DNA of 64,000 bases. Source: Bacteroidetes bacterium HLUCCA01. GTDB lineage: Bacteria > Bacteroidota > Rhodothermia > Balneolales > HLUCCA01. Below are positions 15,768-33,482 of this stretch, piece after piece. The notes under the pieces were generated by a model, which was given only the letters and a program-made list of their open reading frames with translations, had not been told where the DNA came from and searched no databases. The stretch lies in NCBI GenBank assembly GCA_001314545.1, contig LIHN01000001.1, positions 62,001 to 126,000 of the forward strand, read 5' to 3'. Each line of letters begins with the position of its first letter. Position 1 is the stretch's first letter. A program made the position numbers and the translations under genes.

Positions 15768-16220
15768 TCAGTGATGGTGATGCGGATTGGAACAGACATG
15801 CGTATGCCGGTTATTTTTATAGGTGGCGAAGGCAAGCATCGACACGCCGGCTATCATGCTGAGCGTTCTCACGATGAAATCCGTCATAGGTTCAGATTGC
15901 GAGACTATCTGCGCCACACTCAGATCATGATGGTGACCAACGGCAAACTGGCTTGCCATGATCAGGGTTAATCCTATCAGAAAGATGGCGCCGAGACGAA
16001 AATTACGATGCTTAAGCCACGTTGGGACAAACCCAAAAAGACTGACGGGTACAATACCCAGAATAAGCGCCGTTTCAAGGGTCTCGTTCATGAACGTTGA
16101 AATCGTTGGCAGTAAAACAATAACGAAGGGCATTGCCAGACAGTGCAGCAGACACAATGACGATAGCGTCAGGCTGATGCGCGTAAGCAAGGATGGTCGG
16201 GGAGTAGCGGAACTTTGCAA
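15768..16220 (-). CDS. MerC-domain membrane protein with His-rich C-terminus
   Basis: 150 residues with four predicted membrane segments (about 14-35, 45-63, 74-92 and 110-130). The MerC-type N-terminus has CLLHC in the first helix. The C-terminus ends in HTHVCSNPHHHH, and a further HHH lies in an internal loop. MerC was described as a mercury-uptake membrane protein, but chromosomal homologues beside Fur-family regulators are probably zinc- or other metal-related (inference). It is 15 bases downstream of the Fur-family gene and should share its promoter and operator. It is convergent with mccB, with no gap between the stop codons. Confidence 0.82.
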   Translation of the reverse strand: MQSSATPRPSLLTRISLTLSSLCLLHCLAMPFVIVLLPTISTFMNETLETALILGIVPVSLFGFVPTWLKHRNFRLGAIFLIGLTLIMASQFAVGHHHDLSVAQIVSQSEPMTDFIVRTLSMIAGVSMLAFATYKNNRHTHVCSNPHHHH

Positions 16221-16235
16221 GAGTATTCAGTGGAT

Positions 16236-16667
16236 TTATTGGCAAGAAGGACACAAACCATGAAGACGTATCTCCTGATTGGTGACCAAAAAACCTTGTT
16301 TAACGGTTTGAACGCTGCTACCGGCTTCCCTGGTAAGCGGAAAGCAGTAAATTCGCTCGCAGTCATCACATATGAAATGGGCATGGGCATGGTCCGGTTC
16401 CGGATGTGTTTCATCATCAATGTGAATTGCATACAACCAGTTTCGCTCTTCATTCGCTACTTTATGGATGATGTTCTTTTCACAAAAATGATTCAAGGTG
16501 CGGTACAACGTGACCTTGTCTACATGCTCCCCATCCAGTCGTTCAGTAATATCAGCATGAGAAAGAGCAACCCTGGAGTCGAGCAGTACATTGAGTACCT
16601 GTACCCGGATAGGAGTTACTTTCAGGCTGTGTTTTCTGAGTATGTTGCGGATGGTTTCAGTATTCAT
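16236..16667 (-). CDS. Fur-family transcriptional repressor (Zur-like)
   Basis: 143 residues with an N-terminal winged helix (KVTPIRVQVLNVLL and DKVTLYRTLNHF, the family's recognition helix) and a C-terminal dimerisation domain. The latter has a His-rich metal site (HPEPDHAHAHF) and two CxxC pairs (CDDC, CPSC) for structural zinc. Co-transcription with a MerC/His-tail membrane protein favours Zur over Fur or PerR, but the sequence does not settle the metal. A perfect inverted repeat lies 21 bases upstream of its start, which suggests autoregulation. A near-copy occurs before the His-rich ABC operon at 33.5 kb. Confidence 0.88.
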   Translation of the reverse strand: MNTETIRNILRKHSLKVTPIRVQVLNVLLDSRVALSHADITERLDGEHVDKVTLYRTLNHFCEKNIIHKVANEERNWLYAIHIDDETHPEPDHAHAHFICDDCERIYCFPLTREAGSSVQTVKQGFLVTNQEIRLHGLCPSCQ

Positions 16668-16687
16668 GCTTACAAAGATATGCTAAA

Positions 16688-16702
16688 TGCAACTAAGTTG
16701 CA
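16688..16702. promoter_or_regulatory. Candidate Fur/Zur-family operator
   Basis: TGCAAC-TAA-GTTGCA is a perfect 6-3-6 inverted repeat in an AT-rich setting, 21 bases upstream of the Fur-family start codon and between that gene and the divergent AtuA-like gene. Size and symmetry fit Fur-family boxes, although the sequence differs from the E. coli Fur and Zur consensus. Position suggests autoregulation of the regulator-MerC pair. Confidence 0.6.
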
Positions 16703-29916: not shown

Positions 29917-30462
29917 CTAGAACTCACTGTACATGTGGAAGTTGGCCGGAAGGTCTTCCAGTTCAGCTTCGTCCATCTGAACCGCTTCGATACGTACTGC
30001 ATCGATAGTATACTTACTGACCAGGAACCGGTCTACGTAGGTTTCTTCGATAGTGAGCTTACCCACAATCCGTATAGGCTCGTAGATATAGTCGGGCATA
30101 ACCTGATCACTGTTAATCATCAGGGTTTCATTGGGCTGTGGCGGGGGGACATGAAAACAACCCATAAAAGGTGCCTGCAGCAGTATGAAGCGGTCGATGC
30201 GCTCAATACTGTCAAACGGAATCATGTAACCCACAATCTCAACAGTTTCACCGTTGTATTGCATGAGCTCCGAAGGTGCCTGATCTGCTCCCATCCGCCA
30301 GGTTCTCAGGTCCTTGAAATAAATACGATGAGCAGATGATTCTTCCATAACCGAGCTCAAACTTGTTTCAGTGCCCGGATTGTCAGCCAGTGCATAGGCA
30401 CTTCCTGAGCCAATTAAACTGGTTGTAAACAGAATGAGGATAAATTGGAGCGTTTTTTTCAT
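29917..30462 (-). CDS. DUF3299 exported protein
   Basis: 181 residues with a signal peptide (hydrophobic FILILFTTSLIGSGSAYA, cleavage near 26). The body is DUF3299-like, recognisable by YNGETVEIVGYMIPFD, FILLQAPFMGCFHVPPPQPNE and the C-terminal VRIVGKL-like segment. The GCFHVPPP stretch carries Cys and His that could bind a metal (inference). The family has no proven reaction, but homologues are encoded with MacB-like ABC transporters in proteobacterial zinc-regulated operons; I recall the Vibrio ZrgABCDE system as an example, from memory. It is the last gene of the leftward operon, 8 bases after the His-rich permease. Confidence 0.78.
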   Translation of the reverse strand: MKKTLQFILILFTTSLIGSGSAYALADNPGTETSLSSVMEESSAHRIYFKDLRTWRMGADQAPSELMQYNGETVEIVGYMIPFDSIERIDRFILLQAPFMGCFHVPPPQPNETLMINSDQVMPDYIYEPIRIVGKLTIEETYVDRFLVSKYTIDAVRIEAVQMDEAELEDLPANFHMYSEF

Positions 30463-30470
30463 AGTGAAGT

Positions 30471-31976
30471 TTATTTTCCGGATCCCAGATTTTGTACAGC
30501 ATCAGTGCGGTACGCTTTTAAAGCGGGTATAATACCCACCAGTATACCCGCCGTCAGGGTAATAAGCAAAAGAAATGCCTGATTGGTGTCAATTACAAAA
30601 GCTGTTATAACGATGCCCGCAACATCCAGTAGGTAGGGGGCGGCGACACCAACGATGAGGTGCCCGCCGAGCAGACCGATAACCGCACCCAGGGTGCAAA
30701 TAACAGCTGATTCCATGACAATAATGGCGAACACGATTGATCGTCGGGCTCCAAGCGCCCGCATTACTGCCAGATCCCTTTTGCGTTCCTCCATCGTGTT
30801 ATATATAGCTATCAGAACACCAAAAAGAGCAACGATAACCACAAACCAGGCAACGATCTGTAATATTTGTTCGGCATTACCCACGATATTCATGAGGTTG
30901 CGAATCTGCATGGCCGGGACTACAGCCATGATATCTTCCTTGAACACGAAAAAGGGATCACGCATCATGTTACGGGCCAGCAGTGGGTTTTCAGGGGTAG
31001 GGAAGTTTATCATTCCAGCCAACTGAATGGCAGCAGGGGGATTAGCCATTTTTACGAGAACGGCATCCAGTTCGCTCAAGGTTATATTTTCCTGAACGGT
31101 CCGTGCAGGAGCGGCGTGAGCTTCAGCTGTATGCTCGTGGCTGTGGAGATCATCGCCATGGTCATGTCCTTGATGGTCGTGCTCATGATCGTGACTTTCA
31201 TGGCCGTCAGCATCATTGTGATTATGATCGTGGCCGTCATGGTCGTGTTGATCTTCACTGGAGTTATAACCTTGTGAATTGTCATGCTCGTGATCATGAT
31301 CATGAGCATCATCATGAAGGTGAAGATGGGGATCGTGAAGTGCGTGGGTGGTGTATAAATCGGTAAATATGGCGCGGTCGTTGGCGGTTCCGGACGGATT
31401 CAGGATACCCACTATCACAACGGGTATATCATCATGGACATGCGCTTCAGCTCCGGGAGCTGGTTCAGATAAACCGTGTGTAATGAAAATTTCATCGCCT
31501 ACCCGGTGGCCTAAACGTCGGGCGACCTCCGAGCCGAAAACCGCTTCAAGTGGTTTATCGAAGTTCCGGCCTTCCGCCAAGGTGAATGGTTGCCCCCTGC
31601 GGGGTTCAGCATGGGCAATAAAATCCGACGATGTGCCAACTACCCGGTAGCCCGAGTAACTGTCGCCAACATAAAAAGGGAAAGCTCGCTCCACTCTGGG
31701 ATCACGCAGTGCTGCTTCATAAACGCCGTATGGAATAATTCCAACCGAGGTTTCAAGATGATACAGTGTATTCAGTGTTGCCTGTAACTGACTTCCTTTC
31801 GCCGAAAATAACAAGTCATAGCCGACACTGGTCTGGCTGTAACTTTCATCGGTCTGTTGCTGAACCACCAGCACGGCTACGACCATAGCCAGGCCCAACG
31901 CGATCGAGGATACGGTAAGTACGGTACTTAGCGTTCGTTTTCGCAGATTTTTGCCAACTACGTTGAGCAGGTTCAT
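30471..31976 (-). CDS. MacB/FtsX-type ABC permease with a histidine-rich periplasmic insert
   Basis: 501 residues: first membrane helix at about 16-38, a large extracytoplasmic domain (about 40-350), and three membrane helices in the C-terminal FtsX domain (about 365-395, 410-445 and 460-490, with EERKRDLAVMRALGARR between). The MacB-like permease family works by mechanotransmission with a LolD-type ATPase, not classical transport. Unusual here is the stretch 211-287, with 25 His in 77 residues mixed with Asp and Glu, inserted in the periplasmic domain. Additional His occur at 177-181. That region should bind several divalent metal ions. The start overlaps the ATPase gene by four bases. Confidence 0.85.
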   Translation of the reverse strand: MNLLNVVGKNLRKRTLSTVLTVSSIALGLAMVVAVLVVQQQTDESYSQTSVGYDLLFSAKGSQLQATLNTLYHLETSVGIIPYGVYEAALRDPRVERAFPFYVGDSYSGYRVVGTSSDFIAHAEPRRGQPFTLAEGRNFDKPLEAVFGSEVARRLGHRVGDEIFITHGLSEPAPGAEAHVHDDIPVVIVGILNPSGTANDRAIFTDLYTTHALHDPHLHLHDDAHDHDHEHDNSQGYNSSEDQHDHDGHDHNHNDADGHESHDHEHDHQGHDHGDDLHSHEHTAEAHAAPARTVQENITLSELDAVLVKMANPPAAIQLAGMINFPTPENPLLARNMMRDPFFVFKEDIMAVVPAMQIRNLMNIVGNAEQILQIVAWFVVIVALFGVLIAIYNTMEERKRDLAVMRALGARRSIVFAIIVMESAVICTLGAVIGLLGGHLIVGVAAPYLLDVAGIVITAFVIDTNQAFLLLITLTAGILVGIIPALKAYRTDAVQNLGSGK

Positions 31977-32647
31977 ACAGCCTCCTGCGTTGAGGGTTGT
32001 GTAAATCGTTCAATATTCAGCTGATGATCAAATTGATTGATTACATCCTGCTCATGTGTAACGGTAATTAATATTTTTCCGGCTGCGGTTTCCTTGAGCA
32101 ACTGCAAGACTTCAGCTGATGTTGCCGGATCCAGGTTGCCGGTTGGTTCATCAGCCAGAAGTATATCGGGATTGTTGACCAGTGCTCTGGCAATACAGAC
32201 CCGCTGTTGCTGACCCACCGATAACTGAGAGGGTTTGTAATGCATGCGGTCTGCCAGACCGACGCGATCCAGCATGTGCTCAGCCTGATGTTTTTTTGCA
32301 CCTTTACCAGAAAACATAAGCCCTACTTTGACATTCTCCAGTGCTGTGAAACCATCCAGAAGATTAAATGACTGAAAGACATAACCGATGTTATCAGCAC
32401 GGAAACGATCCCTTTCGGATTCAGAAAGTCCTGAAATGACTACATTATTGATGGTTATTTGGCCCTGCTCTGGTTTTAGCAGACCGGAAATAAGATGAAG
32501 TAAGGTCGTCTTTCCCGTACCGGAAGGTCCGGAAACGGCCAGGTGCCGGCCGTTCGGAACGGAATAGTCGTCTATCCTCAGAACTGATTGAAATCGGTTT
32601 GTTTCGGGGTTTATATACCCTTTTTCCACATTTTCGAATACTATCAT
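31973..32647 (-). CDS. LolD/MacB-type ABC ATP-binding protein
   Basis: 224 residues with Walker A GPSGTGKTT (40-48), Q-loop VFQSFNLLDGFTALENV, signature LSVGQQQR, Walker [13 protein letters not shown] and the switch His in VTHEQD. These are the features of the LolD/MacB/FtsE ATPase family. It overlaps the permease gene (31976) and the HMA lipoprotein gene (32644) by four bases each, so it is the dedicated ATPase of this operon. The signature LSVGQ departs from LSGGQ but is common in this family. Confidence 0.88.
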   Translation of the reverse strand: MIVFENVEKGYINPETNRFQSVLRIDDYSVPNGRHLAVSGPSGTGKTTLLHLISGLLKPEQGQITINNVVISGLSESERDRFRADNIGYVFQSFNLLDGFTALENVKVGLMFSGKGAKKHQAEHMLDRVGLADRMHYKPSQLSVGQQQRVCIARALVNNPDILLADEPTGNLDPATSAEVLQLLKETAAGKILITVTHEQDVINQFDHQLNIERFTQPSTQEAV

Positions 32648-32937
32648 GGGCTGTTCAGGTCAAAGTGAACTTTATACCCAAGGTCTTCTATAGCTTTTCG
32701 GATTTGATCCTGCGAGGGTTCCTGGTCTTCCCGAACCTGAAATACAACCGTACTGTCTGCCAGGGTAACTTGCACGCCCTGAACGCCATCCATACGGTTC
32801 ATTTCGTTGGTTACAGCGCCAACACAGCTCTCGCAATACATGCCTTCAACGTGAAAGACAACCTCGCGCACACTTTGCTCGTTATCCGAAGCGCATGCAC
32901 CAATCATCAGAGTTGCCAGTAGTACTAATTTTTTCAT
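32644..32937 (-). CDS. Heavy-metal-associated (HMA) domain lipoprotein
   Basis: 97 residues: a lipoprotein signal (LVLLATLMIGA, Cys15) followed by one ferredoxin-like HMA domain with the metal site GMYCESC (Cys35, Cys38). HMA domains in CopZ/MerP-type proteins carry Cu(I), Zn(II) or Hg(II). A lipid-anchored, extracytoplasmic HMA protein would hand metal to, or take it from, a membrane partner. The His-rich permease and ATPase are encoded directly downstream with a four-base overlap, making a functional unit likely. The metal cannot be told from the motif. Confidence 0.85.
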   Translation of the reverse strand: MKKLVLLATLMIGACASDNEQSVREVVFHVEGMYCESCVGAVTNEMNRMDGVQGVQVTLADSTVVFQVREDQEPSQDQIRKAIEDLGYKVHFDLNSP

Positions 32938-32945
32938 GGGGTTCT

Positions 32946-33464
32946 TCAGTTGGTGATAGTATAGGAAATGGTATGTCCGACCTGCAAATCTCTTGCCATT
33001 GCATAACCGGCGTTTACTTCTACTACATATTTTGCCGGATAGAGCGATGGGATCTGACTGCGTGAGTAGGGTCGGGCGTTAGTATGAATATGAACAATGG
33101 TTCGGTTTTCGTCGGCAAATAGCAGGTCAAGAGGCAGCGGCGTGTTGGCCATCCAGAAACTTTGCACCTCCTGCCGGTCGAATATAAACAGCATACCCTG
33201 GCTGGTTTCCAGGTTGCGTACATCCATCAGACCCAGACTGCGAGTTGAATCGTTGGCGGCGACAGCAATCTCAATCACGGATACGGTGTCACGGACTTCA
33301 TCCAGGAAGGCAAGCTCCCCGGTAAAGGAGAGTGCCCGACCGTTGGGATCTGATGACTTTTGTCCGGATTCCCGGTTGCCGGAACAGGCGTTGGTTGCCC
33401 AGGCAAACACTATGAGAGAAAGAAAGACGCCGACGGCGCGGTATGGTATGGCTGATTGACTCAT
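32946..33464 (-). CDS. DUF192 lipoprotein
   Basis: About 172 residues from the ATG at 33464, chosen because it gives a lipoprotein signal (VGVFLSLIVFAWATNA, Cys27). The longer frame to 33626 lacks such a start and reads through the promoter region. The C-terminal half is DUF192: IAVAANDSTRSLGLMDV, GMLFIFDRQEVQSFWMANTPLPLDLLFAD, then the AKYVVEVNAG block. DUF192 proteins are small beta-fold proteins of unknown function, often exported. As first gene of the metal-type operon, its promoter region carries the candidate operator. Whether it takes part in metal handling is unknown. Confidence 0.8.
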   Translation of the reverse strand: MSQSAIPYRAVGVFLSLIVFAWATNACSGNRESGQKSSDPNGRALSFTGELAFLDEVRDTVSVIEIAVAANDSTRSLGLMDVRNLETSQGMLFIFDRQEVQSFWMANTPLPLDLLFADENRTIVHIHTNARPYSRSQIPSLYPAKYVVEVNAGYAMARDLQVGHTISYTITN

Positions 33465-33467
33465 AAA

Positions 33468-33482
33468 TGCAACTATGTTACA
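33468..33482. promoter_or_regulatory. Second candidate Fur/Zur-family operator
   Basis: TGCAAC-TAT-GTTACA begins four bases upstream of the DUF192 start. It differs from the repeat upstream of the Fur-family gene at two of fifteen positions, and the three flanking A residues on the left are also shared. It precedes the five-gene leftward operon. A chance match of this length with gene-start placement is unlikely but not excluded. Confidence 0.55.

Follow-up and report, generated by a model that had tools for sequence, protein, structure and literature searches.

A histidine-rich MacB-type operon of Bacteroidetes bacterium HLUCCA01 as a putative ZrgA-less variant of the Zrg system under predicted zinc-starvation control

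The subject of this study is a five-gene operon of Bacteroidetes bacterium HLUCCA01, found in a stretch of 64,000 nucleotides (hereafter the window; contig LIHN01000001.1, positions 62,001 to 126,000) of a 3.37 Mb genome in 22 contigs. The operon encodes two lipoproteins with DUF192 and HMA domains, an ATP-binding cassette (ABC) ATPase, a permease and an exported DUF3299 protein. The reading favored here, for which the chances appear evenly balanced, takes it for a variant of the Zrg system without ZrgA, a zinc-starvation Type VII machine working on periplasmic zinc carriers. The mechanism of Zrg is disputed, with zinc import proposed in Vibrio and export of pyochelin-cobalt in Pseudomonas, and a lineage that has neither ZnuA nor ZrgA and keeps the Zrg core under apparent zinc-type control offers a natural experiment for settling it. 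The data also extend the Zrg system to the Balneolota, with a predicted regulon.

Gene content of the operon

All five genes lie on the minus strand between positions 29917 and 33464, with intergenic spacings of 8, -4, -4 and 8 bases (Table 1). This agrees with an earlier reading of the same DNA, made from the sequence alone, which had described four-base overlaps or gaps under 10 bases and had named the five genes as they are named here; every assignment scored above its Pfam cut-off. The arrangement is not attributable to chance, because gene order and linkage are kept in relatives. The sequence-only reading had also drawn a link to Vibrio Zrg, and this proved sound: the ATPase-permease-DUF3299 core is shared with Zrg, and the DUF3299 protein matches the solved structure of PA4066 (PDB 4hsp). 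Both presumed lipoproteins stand as well. The lipobox of the HMA protein (MIGAC) is canonical; that of the DUF192 protein is atypical in the window (TNAC), yet its Cys27 is invariant across 10 orthologues, and in most of these the lipobox is canonical. No functional study of DUF192 was found among the literature titles listed.

The permease and its three invariant histidines

The AlphaFold2 model of the permease (predicted local distance difference test score, pLDDT, 84; predicted TM-score, pTM, 0.77) was compared with the PDB, and the matches listed down to E 0.001 were all Type VII entries. These were LolC/E, MacB, the S. pneumoniae relative 5xu1, HrtB, YtrF, YbbP, BceB, FtsX and MacAB-TolC complexes, with LolE as the best match and moderate TM-scores of 0.2-0.55 by query length. 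As modeled, the protein combines the MacB/LolC/FtsX transmembrane fold with a large periplasmic domain, which places it in the Type VII (MacB/LolC) superfamily. The Type VII transporters studied have no pore; their ATP-driven movement acts in the periplasm, and function is usually set by a partner (PMC12646458). Three histidines, H167, H181 and H214, were invariant in two permease alignments and in all surveyed full-length permeases, whether ZrgA was present or not and including ZrgB of Vibrio and Pseudomonas. As residues common to all versions, they are concrete targets for settling the Zrg mechanism.

These fold matches also bear on two other functions. In the first, the operon would be a specialized Lol-like machine for releasing the operon's own two lipoproteins, or further ones under zinc regulation, or for sorting them to the outer membrane. 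LolE is the best fold match, LolD is the best NCBIfam model for the ATPase (E 3e-56) and the operon has genes for two lipoproteins, but the ATPase reaches only 190 bits against a LolD cut-off of 308, the permease scores 25 bits against a LolCE cut-off of 362, there is one permease gene where a LolC/LolE pair would be expected, and LolA is missing. Core operons that have no such lipoprotein genes still retain the invariant periplasmic histidines, and a Lol-like role is very improbable. In the second, the operon would export a metallophore, free or in complex with its metal, which is the role suggested for PA4063-4066 with pyochelin-cobalt. This is quite unlikely: the pump is of the MacB type, the heme exporter HrtB is among the fold matches and genetic data from P. 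aeruginosa point the same way (PMC11481552), but the operon contains no gene for a MacA-type adaptor, a TolC-type protein or metallophore biosynthesis, and a His-rich loop with HMA and DUF192 lipoproteins is unexpected in a small-molecule pump.

Absence of ZrgA and the His-rich loop

In Zrg, the His-rich part is a separate protein. This protein, ZrgA/PA4063, binds zinc and combines a ferredoxin-like structure with His-rich loops (PMC8561739, PMC9820375), and the paper on the Pseudomonas ZrgA-type structure itself names the HMA superfamily as a fold neighbor. ZrgA accompanies the core in Vibrio, Pseudomonas and Alphaproteobacteria; among named loci it stands beside the core in Vibrio, Aliivibrio, Nitrincola, Hyphomicrobium and Phaeobacter, and for Vibrio and Spongiibacteraceae the adjacent His-rich gene was verified as PF10986. 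No PF10986 gene was present in the genome of the window organism, where a genome-wide search disposed of the possibility of a copy hidden elsewhere, and none scored above the cut-off in any of the 395 genomes of the phylum. An apparent ZrgA match at locus L086 was discarded because it proved to be the His-rich permease.

The window operon instead carries its His-rich segment within the permease, where the insert noted by the sequence-only reading is real (25 histidines in about 105 residues) and the loop (residues 225-287) is unstructured in the model. It is not a peculiarity of this permease, since most homologues of the Bacteroidota clade carry an insert at the same position. Permease loops beside ZrgA had 1-4 histidines (31 loci), and loops with at least 10 were found in loci without ZrgA. 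The raw Fisher test of this complementarity gave p 6e-8, but it was not accepted as strong statistics. In a permease tree built without the loop, and without three loci that duplicated others, the ZrgA systems and the Bacteroidota systems form two deep groups; the contrast is therefore largely one ancient difference, and a test on independent pairs was uninformative. The one swap on which the pattern rests is in Pseudoalteromonas (L164), whose permease branches within the ZrgA group, carries HDHDHD in its loop and comes from a genome without ZrgA, so that the His-rich part was exchanged there independently. Three other genomes without an adjacent ZrgA carry one elsewhere. Such a natural exchange, with the His-rich part located either in a protein of its own or in the permease, helps in settling the Zrg mechanism.

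Distribution of the core and its accessory genes

DUF3299 was present in 5 of 5 genomes of the family, 22 of 129 of the order and 37 of 395 of the phylum, and the closest named relatives that the protein retrieved were Balneolaceae/Balneolia genomes, which places the window organism in the Balneolota. A neighborhood survey of the kind that the sequence-only reading had proposed showed that the ATPase-permease-DUF3299 core is common to these relatives and that the accessory genes vary. In the sister family DUF192 precedes the core (L077, L079, L081-L084, L086), making it an order-level addition. Order relatives from another family (L099:3153-6023, L098:120-2891, L100:138-2582) have no DUF192; in L098 and L099 a small protein similar to ribbon-helix-helix regulators precedes the ATPase, and in L099 MerC does too. 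The order DUF192-HMA-ATPase was seen in G000, G001, G002 and G004, and in G451 with a more divergent HMA gene, so the HMA lipoprotein belongs mainly to the window organism's family. The suggestion that its metal-binding parts set this operon apart from Zrg accordingly fails for the His loop, which is general in the ZrgA-less Bacteroidota-type clade, and for DUF192, which is order-wide, but largely holds for the HMA lipoprotein.

Genome G003 has the core only, with a 3-His loop and the three invariant histidines kept, and a search of that genome for HMA gave no match. An orthologous operon without metal-binding parts had been named beforehand as evidence against a metal role; G003 is the single such case with respect to the accessory parts, yet it retains the three histidines. 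The accessory metal parts are therefore dispensable.

Farther from the window organism, MerC genes lie next to the core in L092 and L099, and L094 has DUF3299 and MerC at a contig end. The DUF3299/ABC cluster of L095 adjoins a relative (E 8e-69) of a flavin adenine dinucleotide (FAD) protein found behind Zur-type boxes in the window genome. In a Spongiibacteraceae cluster (L159:3672-9295) the Zrg core stands together with genes for ZrgA, MerC, a COG0523 GTPase and a Zur-like regulator.

The HMA lipoprotein is the part that most suggests another metal. If the operon served copper or mixed-metal homeostasis, this protein would act as a copper chaperone in the periplasm, with the ABC pair driving copper transfer. 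Its domain is closest to those of copper ATPases and CopZ, and its GMxCxxC motif is not preceded by the Asp that is typical of zinc HMA domains of the ZntA type. However, the regulatory context is of the zinc type and the core is present in relatives without HMA; a copper device is quite unlikely.

A predicted zinc regulon

Expression of both Vibrio zrg (PMC9817125) and Pseudomonas PA4063-4066 (PMC11481552) is Zur-regulated and zinc-repressed. A predicted Zur box, the palindrome TGCAACTATGTTACA, likewise lies upstream of the window operon. The palindrome TGYAACNNNGTTRCA has 7 exact matches in the genome compared to 0 for a reversed control. Other copies precede the Zur-like gene (TGCAACTAAGTTGCA), a divergent pair of ZigA-type GTPase and FAD protein genes (two copies), a TonB receptor and an amino-acid permease, and these sites are conserved in G001 and G002. 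One copy, at C9:56667, is inside a coding region and was set aside as probably a chance match. With at most one mismatch, the palindrome stands upstream of 8 of 13 Balneolota operons (G000, G002, G004, G026, G116, G448, G446, G451), each with a shuffle p of at most 0.01.

The genome encodes only two FUR-family proteins, the Zur-like protein, a probable repressor, and a strong match elsewhere that is presumably Fur. Positions 15768-16702 of the window likely form an autoregulated zur-merC unit behind the palindrome, conserved in G001. The TonB receptor unit is a candidate for outer-membrane zinc uptake. The APC-family amino-acid permease directly behind its palindrome (L013:14810-16161, conserved in G001 and G002) is unexpected in a zinc regulon. 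Two sister species have orthologous lipoproteins with a His-rich N-terminus (L216:6396-6925, L218:5419-5940), each near a one-mismatch palindrome.

Table 1. Features of the operon, its predicted regulon and a comparison locus. Positions are those of the window unless a locus is named.
Feature	Position	Strand	Evidence
DUF192 lipoprotein, operon gene 1	32946..33464	-	PF02643 E 1e-28; invariant Cys; solved relatives 3pjy, 3m7a
HMA (ferredoxin-like) lipoprotein, GMYCESC metal motif	32644..32937	-	PF00403 E 4e-13
LolD/MacB-type ATPase	31973..32647	-	ABC_tran E 2e-35; Walker A GPSGTGKTT, signature LSVGQQQR
MacB/FtsX-type (Type VII) permease	30471..31976	-	MacB_PCD E 2e-15 and FtsX E 2e-14; H167, H181, H214; His-rich loop
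Exported DUF3299 protein (ZrgE/PA4066 family), GCFHVPPP motif	29917..30462	-	DUF3299 E 7e-14; PDB 4hsp E 3e-6
Zur-box-like palindrome, TGCAACTATGTTACA, 15 bp	33468..33482		3 bp upstream of DUF192 start codon
Palindrome upstream of zur-like gene, TGCAACTAAGTTGCA	16688..16702	.	Perfect copy; conserved in G001, G002
FUR-family regulator, Zur-like, probable repressor	16236..16667	-	Best NCBIfam model Zur
MerC-family membrane protein, His-rich tail, downstream of zur-like gene	15768..16220	-	PF03203 E 4e-16
ZigA-type GTPase and FAD/NAD(P)-binding protein	L013:5745-8371 (G000:C7 about 1051745-1054371)		Divergent from two palindromes
TonB receptor with downstream DUF4876 and DUF6850 genes	L013:8318-13917		Behind palindrome
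Pseudoalteromonas ATPase-permease-DUF3299	L164:3827-6333		HDHDHD permease loop; no ZrgA in genome

ZnuA (PF01297) was found in none of the 5 family genomes compared to 11 of 14 controls. Predicted zinc-starvation control of the operon is well supported because of the palindrome's apparent regulon, its recurrence before orthologous operons and the absence of ZnuA from the family. The general metal-handling role suggested earlier is thereby borne out and narrowed, through a palindrome shared with zur-like, zigA-type and TonB genes. A literature search on Zur with MacB in Bacteroidetes, or on Zur in Balneolota, returned nothing relevant.

The same observations could point to a zinc importer, in which zinc caught by the HMA lipoprotein and the His loop is carried into the cytoplasm by the ABC pair, in place of the missing ZnuABC. 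The absence of ZnuA, the predicted Zur-type control and the poor growth of Vibrio zrg mutants without zinc (PMC9817125, PMC9820375) all favor this. However, the permease has a Type VII fold, whose studied members show no pore or alternating access (PMC12646458), ZIP-family transporters present in 4 of 5 family genomes could import zinc instead, and the zinc content of a P. aeruginosa permease mutant was unchanged (PMC11481552). Import is unlikely on balance, though it deserves more weight than the other alternatives considered here.

Proposed mechanism

The model proposed here is that of ATP-driven work on periplasmic zinc carriers and not of import through a pore; the identity of the metal, the direction of transfer and the assembly of the parts are what we infer in it, whereas gene content, fold, invariant residues, the distribution of the palindrome and the lack of ZrgA were observed. 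When zinc is short, the Zur-type repressor would leave the palindrome at 33468-33482 and the operon would be expressed. The ATPase and permease would form a Type VII (MacB/LolC-like) machine in which ATP binding and hydrolysis shift the periplasmic domain, and through this movement the site formed by H167, H181 and H214, fed by the flexible His-rich loop, may take or hand over zinc. Its partner carriers would be the HMA lipoprotein, the DUF192 lipoprotein and the DUF3299 protein, so that zinc entering via the co-regulated TonB receptor could be collected and passed on. The carrying job done in Proteobacteria by ZrgA, with its ferredoxin fold and His loops, would fall in the window operon to the permease loop, aided by the ferredoxin-fold HMA lipoprotein.

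Several results weigh against the model of a zinc-starvation machine. No palindrome with at most one mismatch was found upstream of the operon in the sister species G001, nor in G003, G127, G108 or G445. The Zur-like protein scores 50.5 bits against a Zur cut-off of 167, though Zur is its best NCBIfam model, and the ZigA match, at 539.5 bits, falls short of the NCBI cut-off of 600. The complementarity of loop and ZrgA coincides with the deep division in the tree; it includes a single independent swap, and the pair test was not significant. The closest solved relatives of the HMA domain are copper domains, and its motif is copper-type. Finally, the Vibrio genetics were interpreted as zinc import (PMC9820375) and the Pseudomonas data as pyochelin-cobalt export (PMC11481552).

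A broader proposal is offered tentatively, as one that may well prove wrong. Zrg-type systems in general might be Type VII mechanotransmission machines, with a three-His permease site that moves zinc between periplasmic carriers, and not ABC importers. The His-rich capture part would then be modular, supplied in Proteobacteria by ZrgA, and in Bacteroidota as well as at least one Pseudoalteromonas by the loop of the permease.

Comparison with known systems

The operon resembles several characterized systems in part. With LolCDE it shares the Type VII permease fold and a LolD-like ATPase, but it has a single permease gene, no LolA, a His-rich periplasmic domain and a zinc-type regulatory context, and neither a LolC/LolE pair nor the family scores of LolCDE. 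With MacAB-TolC it shares the MacB-type periplasmic core and FtsX domain; the ATPase and permease are, however, separate genes, and no MacA adaptor or TolC partner is among the five operon genes. The ZnuA component of ZnuABC, the cluster A-I zinc importer, is absent from the window organism's family. The HMA protein has the HMA fold and GMxCxxC motif of CopZ/MerP-type metallochaperones and differs from them as a lipoprotein encoded within an ABC operon behind a Zur-type box.

The closest system is Zrg (Vibrio zrgABCDE; P. aeruginosa PA4063-PA4066), in which a single operon likewise encodes a LolD-type ATPase, a MacB-type permease and a DUF3299 protein; it has the same three invariant permease histidines and, as predicted for the window operon, Zur control. 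The differences are that the window genome has no ZrgA (PF10986) and the operon no DUF2607 gene, that the His-rich loop is in the permease, that DUF192 and HMA lipoproteins are added, and that the permease is about 25-32% identical and belongs to a separate deep clade. Because the operon appears to work like Zrg but does not have its defining feature, ZrgA, it is best described as a ZrgA-less variant of Zrg and not as a member.

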